Shown here in pieces: positions 1,447 to 50,737 of a stretch of 64,000 bases of DNA. This DNA comes from Polytrichum commune (Eukaryota; Streptophyta; Polytrichopsida; Polytrichales; Polytrichaceae), in contig OX485807.1 of assembly GCA_950295325.1 (NCBI GenBank), positions 28,307,666-28,371,665 of the forward strand. Direction: 5' to 3'. The translations under genes and the position numbers were made by a program. The first letter of the stretch is position 1. The number at the start of each line of letters is the position of its first letter. Below the pieces are notes generated by a model that worked only from the letters and a program-made list of their open reading frames with translations, had not been told where the DNA came from and did no database searches.

Positions 1447-4400
1447 TAGTAGGTTTTGTGTACAATGTTGAGTTCAGAAACATCTTGAGATTTTTTACAG
1501 AGTTTAGGGTGCCTACATTTAGGTGCAAGGAGTATTTGGCAAATGCAAATAACCTATGTCTCAATTTGGGTGGCCACTTCAAATTGTTCATGGAAAATGT
1601 CCAAGGTTACATGTATGTTTTGGTTAGGGGAGCAATGACCCCACATATGAAATAGTAAGTGAATAAGTAGCTCCAAATTTATATTTGCATTCTCGACATG
1701 TGGCACACACACCATAAACTAAGAGGGAGGTTCGCTATGTATTGAAATTGAACAAGCCCATTAAAGTTGGCTACACAAATGCACCAACCCCTCAAACCTT
1801 TGGAGGCTTCCAAATTCAACTAGTTTGCAAAAATGTATGAGAGATCAACATGCACATATCAGACATTTCAAGCATTTAGCAACATCCTAAGCCAAGTGTT
1901 GCACCCTCTAAAACACCAACATGCACCCAATTTGCACACATTTAAATAATTTGAAGAGGATCAACATTGAAACATCATACACTTGAAGTACCTAATGCAC
2001 TTCTACACCCATTTTTTTAATTTTTTTTGTACTAGCGTACTTAAACAAGAGAATACACCCAAAATGAACATCATTGCTTGCATCCACTCATAAATTCACA
2101 TATACAAGTATAAATACAGAGAGTGCTATCATGTGAGGAGTGAGCGATAAGCAGTAACTTGTGAGTAGTGAGGGAGGCAAAATATTTGGAGATACACCCA
2201 CTAGTACTTTATATCCGTGGTCCTTTGGCATAGATAGTATAGTCTTTGTGTATAATAATATGAGTGAGGAGTTCACACAAAGTGCAATCAACCTAATGAA
2301 AGCCTTACTTTACTTTTAAAATCAACAACCGTAAGCTTGGCATAGGAAATTGATTTAAAATATGTATTTTTAGATTCAACATTACTTCAACACTTATTTC
2401 TTTCAAAAAAAATGCAAGCACATTCCAAGTATTGAGCATGCTCTAAACTATATTTTTAGAATTCACATAGTTTTGAGAAATGAATTGATGGAAGCATTGC
2501 AAAAAATTTATTAACTATAGTTTTGGGGCATAGATGGAAGTATAATATGAAATTGCTCATTTCAATGTCCACAAAGTAATGAGTGCATTCCCCACAAAGT
2601 AATGAGTAATGGTTATACATGATAGTATAACCATGTATAGTAGCTCTATAACTTCTCCCAATCGTCTTCCATTCCCTCCTCCTCCTCTTTGTCACTAACA
2701 AGTTCAATACACTTCTTTGTCATGACATCTACAAATGGCAGGATGCAATGGTGTTGAGGTTGCAACCCCACCTTTGTGACCGCCTTTGCATGTAATGGAA
2801 GAATTATGCAATTGGGAAGGACCACCACATTTTTCATATTCATAAGAAATGCTCAGAATGGTTAGCACCCATTCCTGGAAATTAACAATTGAATGAATTC
2901 AAATCGAACAAATAGCAAACTTACGTACTCAATCATGACTTTATGAGGACATGATGAATATGATCTTCATCATGATTGAGGGAGATCACCTTCGCCATTG
3001 AGCCACCACCATGAGGTGAGGGTGTAGTATTGTATGATGGTGCCAAGATGACATTAAATATGACAAAGTCTCTCTCAAATGCAACGAAGTAGCACTACTA
3101 CACCAACAAGCATGAAAAATGCAAGTGCAATCCACATAGACGTAGAGATTCCACTTAGTGTATGAAATCCATAGTTACATTAAGAAACAAATTCACATGT
3201 AGATGCATAAGCATCAATAATTGATCGGGGCTTAGTCAACATCTATATCAAAAATTGCAAAGACTTTGAATTCGTCATCCACCGCTCCATGACACATCTA
3301 TTTTCATAATTTGGGTTTACGTAGTAGTTCAATTGCAAAAGGTCAGTAACTCAACCAAAATTCTCTCTATTACCCATAATAACTTGCCCTCCTAGTCTAC
3401 ACTACCCTACTGCCTAGACCTTATTACTATCATGTTAGTAGTCATAATATGCTTGAAGGTTGTACTGGTACTGCCCACCCCTCAATATTGACGAGACTCA
3501 TAGGTCCCACTTGAATTTCATTTCCCAATATGTACCACCATGGGTTTGTAAAAATCTGCCCTTTTAAAGTTTTATTGTTGGTGCATACTAAATTAATTTC
3601 AACATAGTGTTTCTGGGTATGCCCCTGGATTGAAGTGTTGATGATTTGACTAATATTAGACGTCATTGGGGTCTACTCAGTCAACATTTTCACCCTCCCC
3701 AATGGTAGGTGTTGTGAACATATACCCATGCATATCGTACACTACCATCATCTAGGACACAATGCCTTTGGTGGCGCAACCAGGCTACGTTACTTATTTC
3801 CAACATCGGTGGACATCTGAAAAGCTGTGGAAAGGCGCAGGAGGACTCTCTGAAGCCCGCCTCAAAGTAAAGGTAGTTGCATCAATGAAACAATCAACAT
3901 GTACTCCAAGCTACGTCATAGTCCAAGTTTCGAGCATGGCGAGACTCGATCGGAAAAGGGCTTTGTGTTTGGATGGATTGGGCTGTGACACACTTCACCC
4001 TTGACCCGTAAAAGGCTTGGGAGGTTCATCCGAAACCAACATATGTGTTATACATAGACAATGAGTTAATCCTTAACTTTGTGAGAGGCCAATTTTGGGC
4101 TCATGAATGACTCTTGCAGGAGACTTCATCTAAAAGGGAGGTGCTACGAAGGTCACAATAGGTGTCATTGTGTTCCTCATGAAATTTTCATGTCGATGGA
4201 GATGATCCCATTTCGTTACAAAAAGATGGTTGTTCAAAAGACATTTTTAAATTTAAGATTTTTCCCCTGGTTGATACGTTACTGTACACAATGACTTCAT
4301 ATGCTTTTGATTGAGAATTGCCAGTTTTTCTATGGATTCTTTCTCTTACCTCAAAGTGTATGTCTGCTCTTAATATAATCTTGAAATTTTAGATTGTAAT

Positions 4401-9552: not shown

Positions 9553-9778
9553 CAGTGATCGGGGAGATTTTTGGGCATAACCGGCTAAGATCCTAGCGTT
9601 TGCAAGTCCAACTGGTTACATGTAGACATCCTCTGGATTTCCTTGATTAAATTGGGGTATATTCTATAGATTCCTCTAAAATGACCGGTAATTTTCCTGC
9701 AGTCTTGAACATCAACCGATTATTTCTCCAACTCATCTGGTTCATTTGTAACTAATTGCCAATTCTCCCCGATCACAG
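9553..9778 (+). mobile_element. hAT-type MITE family H, copy 1
   Basis: Terminal inverted repeats are CAGTGATCGGGGAGA on the left and its partner TCTCCCCGATCACAG on the right. The interior has the family phrases GATCCTAGCGTTTGCAAG, ACTGGTTACATG and ACTCATCTGGTTCATTTG. The flanking 8-mers ACCTCCAG and ACCCGTAG agree at 5 of 8 positions. This copy has the clearest intact termini and defines the family length of about 225 bp. Confidence 0.7.
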
Positions 9779-24267: not shown

Positions 24268-24495
24268 CACTAAACTAAAAATTGTATTTAGTATCACTTA
24301 CTACTTTAAATTACACAATGCTATAACTATGTATTGTACATCTCATATTTTACCAGCAAATGTCAAACTGGTTTTTTAAACATTATAGGACATTACCAAT
24401 TATACTTGCTAGAAAATCTACTTCAATAATATTATATTAAAATATATCATTTTGAATCTCCAAATAGTAAGTGACACTAAACATCATATTTAGTG
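24268..24495. mobile_element. TA-target MITE family C, copy 1
   Basis: The left arm contains TTTAGTATCACTTACTA and the right arm, reversed, CACTAAATATGATGTTTAGT followed by GTCACTTACTATTTGG. Right of the element is TA (24496-24497); the left flank is CT, so that duplication has decayed or the boundary is slightly different. About 228 bp, no coding capacity. Confidence 0.6.
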
Positions 24496-24710
24496 TAGAC
24501 CCCCTTTTACCTCAATAATAGGGGTGGGTGTCTAGCCTTGGCTGGTAAACGCTCACCAAGTCATGAACACCAAGCTACTCCATAAAAGGCTTGATTGTGA
24601 ACATCCATGGGTAGCGCATAATAATATCATTAATAGTAAGATTGTCAGTAACAACACCAAACATGAATAGCAATGTAAAATATATATATAGATAGATAGA
24701 TAGATTGTGT

Positions 24711-26818: not shown

Positions 26819-27422
26819 TGACCTCAACAACAATTTTATTCATTCACACTTGTCATGTGTAAATCCTTGTGGTTGTGGTTGATGGTGAGGTTGGTCTTTT
26901 AAATTGCAATCAACCGTTGCTCTAGGTATTGGACTTGAGAGTAATTCAAATTGTATATTACCCTTGTTGGCTTTGGATCGTAATGTTAAAGTGCTTGCCT
27001 CCTCGACTTTCTCCTGGGACCTTGGCCTTGGAGCTCTCTAATGACACAACGTGAGCATGGACAACTACCCCAAGGGTGCTTATACCATGCCCACACTACG
27101 ACTAGCGACCGGCCCACACCAATGGGAGAGTTTTCATCTTGATAAGAGTTTTGCATTGGCGAAATTGCAGTGTGTCACATCTAGTAAGGCTATTGTGAGT
27201 AGGACAAGAAATACTTAGTGGTAGCAATAAAATTTGGAAAGAGATGCACTCCTATATCAAGAGGGACTCCGCCTATTGCCCAGGACAAGCAACTAGCTCT
27301 AGTGTGGTAAAGGTATTAACCACATTGAGCAAGTGGTTTGATGGGGTAAGGGGTGATTGTGGAAGTCGTTAGTATTTATTATGCATTGTCTATGGAATAG
27401 AATCAAAGAAAGTTAACCACTA

Positions 27423-27500
27423 CACCATTTATGGTATTTAGTGTCACTGACCCTATTTTGAAGTGTATGCTAGGTTACATTGATGACTAACAACTTCACC
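27423..27500 (+). mobile_element. TA-target MITE family C, left end only
   Basis: After TA (27421-27422) the sequence CACCATTTATGGTATTTAGT and then GTCACT is nearly identical to the ends of the 39.8-kb element. The matching right end was not found with confidence. A TAGTG-TA at about 27892-27898 is a weak candidate. Confidence 0.45.
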
Positions 27501-39350: not shown

Positions 39351-39785
39351 TGAACACTTCAGGGAATGGAGCTATGGACTTTGGCCAACACGGGCAAGGC
39401 TTAAGCAAGGCCCAAGCAAGGGCAAAGAAGTTGGAAGTTCACAAAGAACGTTAAATGCCAAAAGAAGCTTACGAGATCATTTGTGTGTAAAAGTGAGGGT
39501 GAAATCATCTCCTCATTTTCAGTTTCAGAGTAGTCATGAATTTCAAGGAAGGTAGTCATGAAGTCCAAGGAAGACGTTGCTTACCAGTTACGAATGATAA
39601 CGGTGACTTGGTGAGAGTGAATACCAAATTTTGTGCACACTTTTCCAACTACATAGCTACTTAGGTATAAGATGGTGCAAAAACCAATGTACTCCACCTA
39701 AAATCAACACCCTAAAATCTTACACAATAAATGCACATTGACTTCAATACCACAACATCATACTCACATGTTGGATCACGTACTA

Positions 39786-40230
39786 CAATGAACGGGGGGA
39801 ACTAACTGCTGCACCGTTTATGGTATTTAGTGTCACTTACTATTCAAAGTTATGCAATGCAAAAACTTCTTACTACAGACTCCAATTTTTGCTTTCAAAG
39901 GTTATACAGGTTGTCCATATATTAGAGAACATAAATGACTTTGCTTGGGAAAACATTACATTCTCAATAAATAGTTATACCATTGTGTAACTTTGAATAG
40001 TGAGTGACACTAAATACCATAAATGGTGTAGTTATATATGAAGTAGTCGAGTTTGAGAAATAAGTTGTTGAAGTTCAAGACTTTAGAAAAATCACCGATC
40101 TTTGTAGAGGAATCCATGGAATCTATCTCAAATTAATAAAGAAAAATCAAAAGATCACAACATGGAACTGGTTGGACTTGGCAACATTAGGAATTGGACC
40201 GATTATGCCCCAAAATCTCCATGGACATTG
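39786..40230 (-). mobile_element. hAT-type MITE family H, copy 4 (inverted, split by a MITE)
   Basis: The element reads on the minus strand from CAATGTCCATGGAGATTTTG to a right end CCCCCCGTTCATTG. The 8-bp flanks ACGTACTA (39778-39785) and ATGTACTA (40231-40238) match at 7 of 8. The body is interrupted by a 217-bp TA-target MITE at 39812-40028. After removing that, the halves join into a normal family member. Confidence 0.82.
39812..40028. mobile_element. TA-target MITE family C, nested in hAT copy 4
   Basis: Terminal inverted repeats extend about 50 bp with few mismatches. They start CACC(G/A)TTTATGGTATTTAGTG and continue TCACT(T/C)ACTATTCAAAGTTA. The right flank is TA (40029-40030); the left is TG, a decayed TA. 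The interior is AT-rich and non-coding. Confidence 0.82.
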
Positions 40231-40446
40231 ATGTACTAATAAAAAATTCAACATTCAATTTTTTTTTGCATGCATAATGGAAATAAGACATATTTTGATG
40301 CATTGGAATCCCTTGTCATTTTGCAACAAGGATCATTCAATATAATCTAATTTACTAAAACTATATGTCTCTGCTTTGTGCTTAAATTGATGATTTTAGC
40401 ATCAGCTACCTTCGAAATTTGGTGTTGACATTTCTGCAACGTGGAG

Positions 40447-41047
40447 CAATGTCAGGGGAGATTTTTGGGCATAATCAATTGAGATCCTAGTGTTTCCAAG
40501 TACAACCGGTTACATGTTCACATCTTTCGGTTTTCTTTATTAACTGGGGTATATTCTATAAATTCTTCTGAAATGATCGGTACTTTTCTTGAAGTCTTGA
40601 ACTTCAACATGTTATTTCTCAAATTCAACCGGTTCATCTATAACTACACTAAAAATGATATGTAGTATCATATGGTATTTTATGTCATTGTGGTATCTTT
40701 TCAGATGACGATTCTTATGAACAAGTGAACAAAATACTATCATGGATGATGGATGAGTTCATCAATCGGCCAAAAACCCTACCTTCTCTTGTCAGCAACT
40801 TGTGATGAAATATAATCATGGATGATTGAAATTTCGTCGGAAAAATCACTTGATAAGCGATCGTGATTGCAACACCATAAATCTATAAGTCCCCCAAACA
40901 TTTACAAGGAATGACAAATAATGGTTGGGCTAACATTAGTGCTGGTGACACTATACTGCGGTTTACAATTAGTATGGAGCAAGACAATTAGAACCGGTGA
41001 CACTGAATATCATATTTAGTGTAGCAGTGAGCTCTCCCTGTTCATCG
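40447..41047 (+). mobile_element. hAT-type MITE family H, copy 5 (split by a MITE)
   Basis: It starts CAATGTCAGGGGAGATTTTT. The body runs to ATCTATAAC, is interrupted at TA by a 375-bp element, and resumes GCAGTGAGCTCTCCCTGTTC before ending at ATCG (41047). That resumed end aligns with the right end of copy 2. The flanks ACGTGGAG (40439-40446) and GTGTGGAG (41048-41055) agree at 6 of 8. Confidence 0.8.
40647..41021. mobile_element. TA-target MITE, nested in hAT copy 5
   Basis: The ends are CACTAAAAATGATATGTAGT and, inverted, CACTAAATATGATATTCAGT. Intact TA lies on both sides (40645-40646 and 41022-41023). It shares terminal words with the 39.8-kb element, but its 300-bp interior is different, so the two are separate subfamilies rather than copies of one insertion. 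Confidence 0.75.
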
Positions 41048-41049
41048 GT

Positions 41050-42589
41050 GTGGAGGAGAAGATCCTGATGCTATTGTGATTATTCCTCGGCTCAAGGACA
41101 ACAGTCACTGTGAGGCATTTCCATTGTCATAAGAGGATGGGGCTTTCTTTTCTTTTTGTGAAGACTTGAAAGGCAGGCACTTCAATGGCAGACAAATGGG
41201 TGGTGTTCTTGTCTCCACTTATACAACCCCCCCCCCCCTCTTCCTCTTTCACTGTTAAGCTTTTAGGTGCACAGGAATTGTCCTTACTTGACCCCCTTAA
41301 ATGCAGTTTTCTTGAATCTGGGCGGCCCATGAAATCTATGAGAAAAGTGAGCTAGTTCAACCGGCATTTTGGCAAAACTATATATAAGTAGCCCATCTGA
41401 AACTAGTGCCCAGATCTCCCATTCATTGTACCATTTCCTAGTACTACATTGTGAACATTTGACATGCGAGAATTTTTACAAGACAACTATGACCCACTCA
41501 TCAGTGTATTGTGTCGCCCTTCGAAGCTTTAGTGCATGTGTCATGATCGAACGCTCGAAGGTAAAAGGCTTGTTGCCGTGGAGTTGCATAGTTCCTTCTA
41601 GTGCACTAGTGTCGGGCCGAGGATGGTGGGAATTGTACTGGGTAAGGTTTGTGGACCATGTGAGATCACTCTTCTTAACCCTCAAAGGACCACGGGGCCC
41701 AATGTATGGCCCTACACATCATTCTACGAGTCTTACTTAGCCTTAAATTATGTTTCTCATACTTTGAATATAACTTATACATTGTCTTTTGTGAATGAGG
41801 AAATCAAATGCATGCGCGTGTGATATTGTTGGTCAAAATATGAAGTATGCATTTGCATCCAAGGGCACCCATATCATGTATTTCAATTTAAATGTTTAGT
41901 AATATAGAGGTAGACAACCATTTGAAAGTGCACAAGAAAAATAAGTTCATTTAAGGTAGGGTCACTTTTGACACAATTGGGTAATGAAAGTATGTAATCC
42001 AAATACACGTCTTTGTGCATAGAGAGGCTTGGATAGAGCTTCTTGGGTGTTGAGAAGTAAACATAAAACCCCTATTTGAGCAGTATTTGGGAAGATTTGC
42101 AATCAAGAATGGACACCTAAAAGAAATGTATTGATGATGCTCAAAAATATAGCCACCATTCTAGATTTCATTGTTGACTCAAATTGGGAGGACATGTGTG
42201 CTCCATAACATTGCACAACCCATATTGTAAGTTTCTTTTCTTGGGGGGGGGGGGGGGGGGCTTGCAACATGCTTAGTAGCTGGCCCCACTTTTCTTGATC
42301 ATCTATTTTGTGTCACCTAGTCCAGTCGGTGTGAGGCCCCACAATGAGGCACGCATGCTCACATGTTGTTGGAGTTTTTAATCATTAGTTTCAGTCATCC
42401 AAGTCTAAGGTAGGCCCAATTGCACGTCCACCTTCACATAGTGAGTGATTCATAGGTTGGTCATTGTTCATTTTGTGAAGGTGGCCCATTATAAATGGAA
42501 CACGGTGCTCCCAAAACCATCGATACTAGGGTGCATCGTGCAACACCCTAGTACTGAGTAATGTTATGTCTTCTAAAGATAGAAGCTAA
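41050..42589. other. Intergenic DNA, no gene supported
   Basis: A 123-codon plus-strand frame (41369-41740) overlaps an antisense frame and has no recognisable motif. Runs of 12 C (41227-41238) and 18 G (42243-42260) are present. Confidence 0.4.
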
Positions 42590-48484: not shown

Positions 48485-49882
48485 TGACCACATAGAACCC
48501 AGTAAGCTAATAGCCTAGCCACACATGCTGGCGGAGGGACCACTGGACGCCTCCCACCAGCATGGGGCCACTTCGGACAAGCTTTTCCGCTAGCAACAAC
48601 GACTGGATGTAATGGACGACCATCACACCTGTTGAGTGGGTTTGCTTCTAGTTTGCTGCCACTTTTGCTCCCAACGAGAGAATTCCTGCGCTCACACTTA
48701 CTTACTGGTGGCAGTGAATGGAGTTGGCCTCGTCACTGGTAGCCAGCAGCGGTAAGAAAGAGTGGGCAGCCCTATAAGCGCAGGAAGGAAGAGGCAGGGA
48801 GGCAGGGAGGGGGTGGGTGACAGGACTGGTGAAGAAGGTGAGAACAGAAGGGGAGGGAGTCACGAGCGGCCTCCTCCGACAGGATACGGCTATCAGAGTG
48901 GTGGCAGTGGCAGGCAGGCAGGCAGCAGCAGCAGCAGGCGCAGGAAGGATTCAGGAAGCTGGCTGCAGGCTTAGGCTAGGGATGAACTATATTATGTTAA
49001 CTTAACTTAGCTAGAGGCCGAGAGGTGATGAACATTGACGAGGAAGCAGTACATACAGTAGTCTGCTAGAGCGACTTGCAGGCAGCAGCAAGCATGTGAT
49101 GACCTTAGAGGAGAGCTATGTGTTTTATGTATGTAAGTAAGTTATAGGTAGGCCCGGGAGCTGATGAGATAGGGTGGAGAGCATGAGAGAGAGAGAGAGA
49201 GAGGGGGGGAGAGAGGGAGGGAGAGAGCGAGCGACCGAGCGAGCCTAGAATAGGAGGAGTCCGACCGGAAGCCCGGGCTGTTGGCGACATTAGTTACACA
49301 GCTGAATCGCCTTGAAGGCTTGCGAATTCCCCACCCCACTCGCACGCGTGTGCAGACACACGGCCCCAGCACCAGCAAGTGCGCCGCTTGCCCTGCGCAC
49401 GTGCGGGAGACATGAGGTGAGCCTGCTAGGCTGCCCCCTCTTGCTCCTCCCCCAGGAATGAAGGCAACTTCTTCCATCCTCTTTGACTGGAGGGTGAGCT
49501 CTCACTCTCGCTCTCACTTTCACTCGTAACTCCTATATTCAAGAGGGGCAACAAGAAGCAGAAGAAGGAGAAGGCCGGGAGAAGGAAAATAAATGAGTGA
49601 TTGAGAGGTTGACGAACAGGTTGGTTTTTGTTGCTGCTGCTGCGGCGGTGGGTAGGGTGGAAACGGGTGGGAAGGATGCGAGGCAGGGAAAGGGGGGAGA
49701 AAGGCCACAAGGAAACGCAAGGAGGAGCACAAGAATGTGGGGGTGGAGGTAATCGTAGGGTGGTGGAATTGTGGCGTGCGGATGCAGTAGGAGGGGAAGG
49801 GTGCAGGATTTGAGAAGGATTTGGGAGGGAGGGGGGGGGGGGGAAGAGGGAAGGGAAGGTGGTGGTGGTCGGGTATGTGTGC
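48485..49882 (+). promoter_or_regulatory. AHL promoter and purine-rich 5' leader (approximate)
   Basis: Base composition turns GC-rich here and stays so through the AHL gene. TATAAG at 48773-48778 is a possible TATA box. Beyond it the plus strand is strongly purine-rich: (GA)n at about 49187-49202, GAGCGAGCGACCGAGC at about 49226, and a 13-base G run at 49831-49843, 40 bp before the start codon. AAGGTGAGA near 48836 could be a 5' splice site for a leader intron, but no acceptor can be chosen. A stop codon in frame with the AHL start lies at 49811-49813. Transcription start is inferred, not seen. Confidence 0.35.
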
Positions 49883-50737
49883 ATGGCTGGGGTGGAAGAA
49901 GTGGGAGCTCGGCCCGCGGGCGCCACTTCTGACGACGAGCAGAGTGGGAGCAGCGGGCGAGCGGAAAAGCGAGCGAAACAACCTGGGGAGGCCGGAGGGA
50001 GTGGGGGAGGAGGACAAGGAGGTTCGCATATTCCGCAAGGGGAAGGTGGGAGCAGGAAACCGCGAGGTCGACCCCCGGGGTCGAAGAACAAACCGAAGCC
50101 ACCGATCATCATCACGCGCGACAACGGCAACGCGATGCGCCCCCACGTGCTGGAGGTCGCGGGCGGCTGCGACGTCGGCGAGTCGGTGGCCTCGTTCGCG
50201 CGACGGCGGCAGCGCGGCGTGTGCGTGATGGGAGCCAGCGGCACCGTGTCGAACGTGACCCTCAGGCAACCCACAACGCCCGGTGCCACCGTCACCTTCC
50301 ACGGCCGCTTTGAGATCATCTCCCTTTCCGGTGCATTCCTGCCACCGCCGTCGCCGTCGCCAACCACTGGGCTCACGGTCTCGCTCGCAGGCACCGCAGG
50401 CCAGGTGCTGGGCGGCAGCGTCGTGGGGACACTCCTTGCTGCGGGTCCTGTGCTTGTGATCGCAGCCTCCTTCCTGGGGGCTACTTATGAGCGCTTGCCC
50501 CTTGACGACGATGACCAAGGTCTTACCATCGGTGGAGGCGCGGGCTCCAGCTCGCAGGCACCTCTCGCCTTGCAGCCAGGTGTAACGGAGCTTGCTTATC
50601 CTGGCCCGCTGCAATCTCTTACGTACATTCCCAACCTGGGGAACCAAACGCAATTGACGCAGGATGTGTTAGCCCAATGGGCCCAGGGCCACCCGCACAG
50701 TCATGGGCACAATCAACGTCCCCCGCAATACCAATGA
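49883..50737 (+). CDS. AT-hook motif nuclear-localized (AHL) protein, type I
   Basis: Predicted 284-residue chromatin protein. AHL proteins bind the minor groove of AT-rich DNA through the AT-hook and form trimers through the PPC/DUF296 domain. They regulate growth and development genes in the nucleus. Residues 61-74 are the type-I AT-hook [14 protein letters not shown]. The PPC domain spans about 86-211, with [37 protein letters not shown] (141-156, the conserved six-residue core being GRFEII where GRFEIL is usual), [11 protein letters not shown] and YERLPL. The N terminus is Gly/Ser/Glu-rich and the C terminus Gln/His/Pro-rich. The start is the first in-frame ATG after the stop at 49811-49813. 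The frame is uninterrupted, fitting the intronless clade A of the family. It is far more GC-rich than the surrounding repeats. The member identity within the family cannot be fixed here. Confidence 0.95.

Follow-up and report, generated by a model that had tools for sequence, protein, structure and literature searches.

An internal TA in one form of a family of short dispersed elements, the CTAG form of the putative hAT-type MITE family H, is very probably a place where a group of TA-target MITEs has landed repeatedly, guided by target-sequence preference. This position, site S (AACTA^GCAGT), is shared by several families in both orientations, the flanks of N2-type elements show a base preference, the two forms of H contrast in their occupancy, and the nested N2 elements are younger than their hosts. 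In the mechanism that we propose, N1, N2 and further MITE families, whose ends mostly start with CAC, would insert at TA and would favor an 8-bp palindrome, AACTAGTT, around it. Site S (GTAACTAGCGGTC) would be the best match to this preference within H, and the insertions would be independent of one another and would postdate the dispersal of the H copies, the same nucleotide being hit many times owing to the thousands of H copies.

Two Nested MITEs in One Window

The window, by which we mean the whole 64,000-nucleotide stretch of Polytrichum commune DNA that was analyzed (contig OX485807.1, positions 28,307,666 to 28,371,665), has six H copies, of which H4 and H5 are filled at the same internal TA (table 1). 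As a preliminary description of this DNA had it, the two copies are inverted relative to each other and lie 216 bp apart, and they are separate hAT-type MITE insertions. The description had drawn this from their differing 8-bp flanks, and each copy does have its own imperfect 8-bp duplication: the flanks of H4, ACGTACTA and ATGTACTA, agree at 7/8 positions, and those of H5, ACGTGGAG and GTGTGGAG, agree at 6/8 positions unshifted and at 7/8 with a 2-base shift. On the H strand, the interruption follows ATATAAC-TA in H4, as described there, and CTATAAC-TA in H5; H resumes after the insert with GCAGTTAG in H4 and with GCAGTGAG in H5. One border of N1 is TA and the other is a mutated TG, which reads CA on the H strand. 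N1 and N2 have similar ends, with their first and last bases alike, and unrelated interiors, as had also been proposed. Their full-length alignment scores 15 (shuffled mean 13.9) and that of their trimmed interiors scores 13 (shuffled mean 12.2), so that nothing aligns beyond chance.

Table 1. Coordinates of the nested elements and their target duplications in the window. The orientation given for N1 is arbitrary because the element is nearly palindromic.
Feature	Position	Strand	Basis or remark
H4, family H hAT-type MITE, CTAG form, interrupted by N1	39786..40230	-	Alignment to the 5 other H copies of the window; terminal inverted repeats; 7/8 duplication
H4 8-bp target duplication, copy 1, ACGTACTA	39778..39785	.	
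H4 8-bp target duplication, copy 2, ATGTACTA	40231..40238	.	
N1, 217-bp TA-target MITE in H4 at site S	39812..40028	-	Inverted repeat; solo copies elsewhere
TA duplication, site S of H4	40029..40030	.	Other copy, 39810-39811, is TG
H5, family H hAT-type MITE, CTAG form, interrupted by N2	40447..41047	+	Alignment; terminal inverted repeats; duplication
H5 8-bp target duplication, copy 1, ACGTGGAG	40439..40446	.	
H5 8-bp target duplication, copy 2, GTGTGGAG	41048..41055	.	
N2, 375-bp TA-target MITE in H5 at site S	40647..41021	+	Inverted repeat; many solo copies
TA duplication, site S of H5	left 40645..40646, right 41022-41023	.	TA on both sides of N2

The other four H copies of the window (at 9561, 11924, 24932, and 60542) cross S without an insert. 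By form, two of the three CTAG copies in the window and none of the three CTAA copies are filled, and genome-wide the nested arrangement at S is far above chance. Elsewhere in the window are a further N-type element (24269-24498), a lone N1-type end without a partner (27419-27451), and a GC-rich open frame (49859-50737) with a PCC domain (PF03479), which we read as encoding a plant AHL-type DNA-binding protein.

Family H and Its Two Forms

The assembly that was searched, and that contains the window, has 408 Mb in 64 contigs, of which seven exceed 42 Mb. A word of 15 fixed H bases ending at S has 2,324 exact matches in the genome, compared with 2 for the reversed control. The patterns used for this word, and for the matches with CA at S described below, do not admit G as their last letter, so a share of the H copies goes uncounted. 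Among the first 100 of the 2,324 matches, the word is followed by A in 63 (CTAA), by G in 28 (CTAG), by inserts in 6, and by other sequence in 3; CTAA is the commoner form of H and CTAG the rarer. The two forms tend to differ at their ends too, judging from 20 empty copies, ten of each form.

The terminal inverted repeats of H begin with CA(G), as is typical of hAT-type elements, with CAGTGTCCGGGGAG at one end and CTCCCCGTTCATTG at the other, and 8-bp target duplications are present at 7/8 in H4 and 6/8 in H5. Among the 20 composites that were readable (from 55 loci), 13 have a duplication of at least 6/8, for which the chance rate is 12%; the duplications are plainer by eye at empty H copies than at composites. 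Based on target duplication and terminal repeats, we regard H as a probable hAT-type MITE family. At S, the two forms carry the same five bases in opposite orientation, GCGGT versus ACCGC (L121-L140), as if a small inversion had happened, and variants of these bases look like parallel CpG decay. One locus (L013) has part of the H arm tandemly repeated, about 125 bp apart, and every filled-site count below was made without 20 H-arm loci (L021-L040).

Several MITE Families at One Site

A CA directly after the TA at S was found in 38 genome matches, and all 38 loci were inspected. This set is not an exact subset of the 2,324 matches; L107 belongs to the latter only. Insertions at S account for 27 of the 38 and small changes for 11. 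By family, the insertions comprise seven of A, five of B, six of N2 (including a diverged branch), three of D, and one of N1, and the remaining five are unassigned or fragments (L082 twice, L084, L086, and L089). Trimmed interiors of representatives of A, B, D, and N2 show no mutual alignment beyond 200 shuffles; the interiors of B and N1 do align beyond shuffles, and these two families are therefore related. At least four MITE families whose interiors are unrelated have inserted at S. Families A, B, N2, and D are each seen there in both orientations, which implies at least about eight independent events; family A is oriented 6 to 1. The target duplication of the N families is a TA, of which empty H copies have one and filled copies two. 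The preliminary description had suggested, from H4 and H5, a real insertion hotspot in H, and several families with unrelated interiors, in both orientations and at the same TA, bear this out.

Some of the small changes look like excision scars and suggest that the site may be emptied. TACAGTA is found at L111, L112, and L116, and TACATGTA at L115, L117, and L118. Of the last three loci, one lies on contig C2 and the other two on C5, and all have the same H copy, scar, and downstream flank; given this common flank, the TACATGTA scar was counted once, and the common scar and flank indicate that a larger unit was probably copied. At another locus (L099), an N1-like element seems to lie within the B-type insert at S, which makes three nesting levels.

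Target-Sequence Preference and the Contrast between Forms

We examined the first 100 of 1,679 genome matches to N2-type ends and, after removal of flanks in H, built the preference from 86 distinct N2-type flanks. These flanks prefer AAC before the TA at each end (AACTA), which gives the consensus AACTAGTT, an 8-bp palindrome. Solo N1 flanks look similar and are mostly ACTA/TAGT (20 inspected of 40 N1 matches). Measured by the N2-type preference, S scores 6.15, higher than any other of the 14 TAs of the H consensus; the next best scores 2.47 and the CTAA form scores -1.43. A looser filter, with 84 flanks, gives 5.25 for S, 2.66 for the next best, and -2.29 for the CTAA form; this set kept two flanks in H away from S (L152) and was without four flanks that are not in H or not clearly in H. 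The preliminary description had named CTAGCAG as the hotspot word: it placed the site correctly, but the preference is better described as AACTAGTT.

The two forms of H differ accordingly in what they hold. Right junctions, in which the right end of a nested element meets the H tail, were counted for each: the CTAG form has 140, the CTAA form has none, and reversed-pattern controls also give 0; the 140 were not de-duplicated and include at least one evenly spaced triplet. Empty sites of both forms are present: among the first 100 of the 2,324 matches, the first eight letters of the tails give 17 to 39 such sites. The idea that any CTAG is a sufficient target was rejected because a second CTAG in H is empty. 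This second CTAG has 1,427 empty copies, and none of 88 rows has a CACT start there; most of these rows look like another repeat, and the non-CACT rows were judged by eye. Some inserts at S begin with CAAT, CAGT, or CATT, and one row at the second CTAG has CACCCTCATG. One H copy in which AACTAGTT replaces AACCGGTT (L152) holds a D-type insert there; at S, the same copy continues into CACTAATTATCC, where another insert appears to begin.

The contrast between forms would also arise if the CTAA form had spread after the N families fell quiet, so that it reflects time and not sequence. This reading agrees with the difference between the two forms at their ends and with the impression, by eye, that divergence is slightly lower in the ten CTAA copies than in the ten of the CTAG form, and differing age of the forms may add to the 140-to-0 contrast. 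As the explanation of that contrast, however, we consider it unlikely: the base preference emerges independently from flanks outside H, one CTAA copy (L116) has a CAG scar at S, and another H position becomes a target where AACTAGTT is present, as in L152.

Target-sequence preference leaves two features of S unaccounted for, namely a bias in orientation and an excess of insertions. Eight of the first 100 N2-type ends (of 1,679), corresponding to 7 elements, are at S. Flanks resembling the left side of H with at most 4 mismatches occur by chance at 4.2 per 100, and the flanks at S were therefore verified locus by locus; the seven verified elements are L005, L141, L142, L143, L144, L145, and L147, and L146 was dropped. 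The base preference predicts 0.2-0.3% of insertions per 1,000 CTAG-type sites. With 2,000-4,000 such sites, a number that is our own estimate, the excess beyond base preference is approximately 6- to 15-fold. Possible causes are shared chromatin, duplication of composites, and better survival. We give little credence to a further proposal, that S attracts MITEs beyond its sequence and that the end of the hAT-type MITE, through its structure or bound proteins, docks TA elements, which would produce a preferred orientation and a several-fold excess.

Thousands of like targets, in two forms that differ by a few bases at the TA, amount to a natural experiment in target choice, and the set of H sites is ready for tests of which surrounding bases a TA-inserting transposase recognizes. 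The case illustrates how a preference of 8 bp can lead several repeat families to insert repeatedly into another.

Independent Nesting versus Spread of Composites

The preliminary description had held that genome copies repeating the same composite intact would speak against separate nesting events. Taken literally, such copies exist, with H plus an N2-type element at S in 17 of the 20 best loci, and for this reason we weighed the recurrence against comparisons of age, distance, and tree; yet N2 is younger than the H arms around it, and N2 from composites does not cluster apart from solo N2. When 27 N2 sequences from H and 27 solo ones are placed in one tree (54 in all), the label composite or solo changes 18 times, compared with a shuffled mean of 18.4, and 262/500 shuffles are as low; given that 37/51 inner branches are unsupported, this lack of clustering is by itself weak evidence. 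Distances among N2 copies and among their host arms are uncorrelated (Mantel r -0.01, 27 composites), and the difference is larger for the arms (0.255) than for N2 (0.197) in the same 27 composites. The age comparison used 24 composites, the three diverged N2 copies (L095, L096, and L107) having been left out; divergence there is 9.3% for N2 and 15.4% for host arms, or 9.4% and 14.0% with CpG-type columns masked. The arm is farther from its own majority than N2 in 21/24 composites (Wilcoxon P = 3e-06) and in 19/24 with masking (P = 1e-04). As the arms are more diverged than N2, the nested N2 elements look younger than their hosts, although mixed H lineages could inflate the arm divergence somewhat.

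These comparisons bear on the reading in which each N family entered H a single time and the few composites so formed were multiplied as units by hAT transposase. It is consistent with the many loci that have H and N2 in the same orientation. One orientation is seen in 26/27 composites, most of which came from a query that favors it; in the samples without query bias the ratio is 10 to 1, the majority being L005, L085, L095, L096, L104, L105, L107, L145, L147, and H5 and the exception L103. The 8-bp duplications that bound 13/20 composites are likewise in agreement, but suit independent insertion equally. Three evenly spaced N-H junctions, 348 bp apart (C1:38214728, 38215076, and 38215424), which suggest a tandem array of the composite, are a further point in its favor. 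However, four families are present in both orientations, and spread as units predicts equal ages, whereas N2 is younger unless mixed H lineages raise the arm figure; moreover, H and N2 distances are uncorrelated, and N2 copies from composites intermingle with solo ones, albeit in a poorly resolved tree. On the tree, distance, and age comparisons, we judge it quite improbable that the spread of composites is the main cause.

The preliminary description had also raised replacement or recombination of an older nested insertion, leaving two different inserts, for which the coincidence of site and the short scars TACAGTA and TACATGTA, suggesting that S can be emptied, might speak, but this is hardly credible and not needed given the unrelated interiors, the TA retained at either end of many inserts, and the many separate hosts.

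Comparison with Known Systems

Jiang and Wessler reportedly used nested MITEs of maize and rice to study insertion preference in 2001. Our approach is similar in that insertions of MITEs into MITEs are used to read preference; it differs, as far as citing descriptions of that work allow a comparison, in the 8-bp word and the contrast between two forms of the host. A comparable two-form host contrast was not found in the open-licence literature that we searched.

Hotspots of this kind are already known for MITEs, from carrot. There, families of the Stowaway DcSto MITEs are described as sharing exact positions, termed "parallel insertion sites" (PMC6881990), and DcSto3 and DcSto4 as lying at exactly the same position (PMC3695323); the authors suggest a common transposase source (PMC6881990, PMC3695323). 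The carrot elements and the N families are alike in that different TA-target MITEs with similar ends occupy exactly the same position. The shared positions in carrot are corresponding places in different plants, whereas ours is one site of a dispersed MITE within one genome, and the H form without the target word serves here as an internal control. The N elements also lack the Stowaway end CTCCCTCC.

Identity of the Nested Families

Stowaway MITEs have a CTCCCTCC-type terminal repeat. The N families have other ends, CACTAAATATG, CACCATTTATGG, and similar. Membership of the CACTA elements was considered and rejected: nested and solo copies, inspected by eye, have TA only and not a 3-bp duplication. 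The TA duplication of the N families agrees with that of Tc1/mariner and pogo MITEs. We infer that one transposase, or one transposase group, with a preference for AACTAGTT moved all N families. We sought an autonomous partner through the pogo-like DDE_1 domain (PF03184), which has at least 150 matches in the genome, many with long open frames. Pogo-like elements are abundant and resemble the N families in their TA duplication, CA-starting ends, and inverted repeats of about 25 bp; however, their ends are CAGTCTAACCTTGATAATGTCAC and similar, compared with CACTAAATA in the N families. In 14 of the at least 150 loci, we looked for CACTAAAT ends and found none among the clear ends, which were present at most of the 14 (L163, L170, and L173 were among the exceptions); this search thus returned no pogo-like element with N-type ends. 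At L167, N2-type ends do bracket a pogo-like element, which we read as an N2 MITE with a pogo element inside it, the latter lying about 34 bp from the left end of the MITE. Two other pogo-like elements (L161 and L162) share 98% identity over 2 kb and have TA duplications and 25-bp ends.
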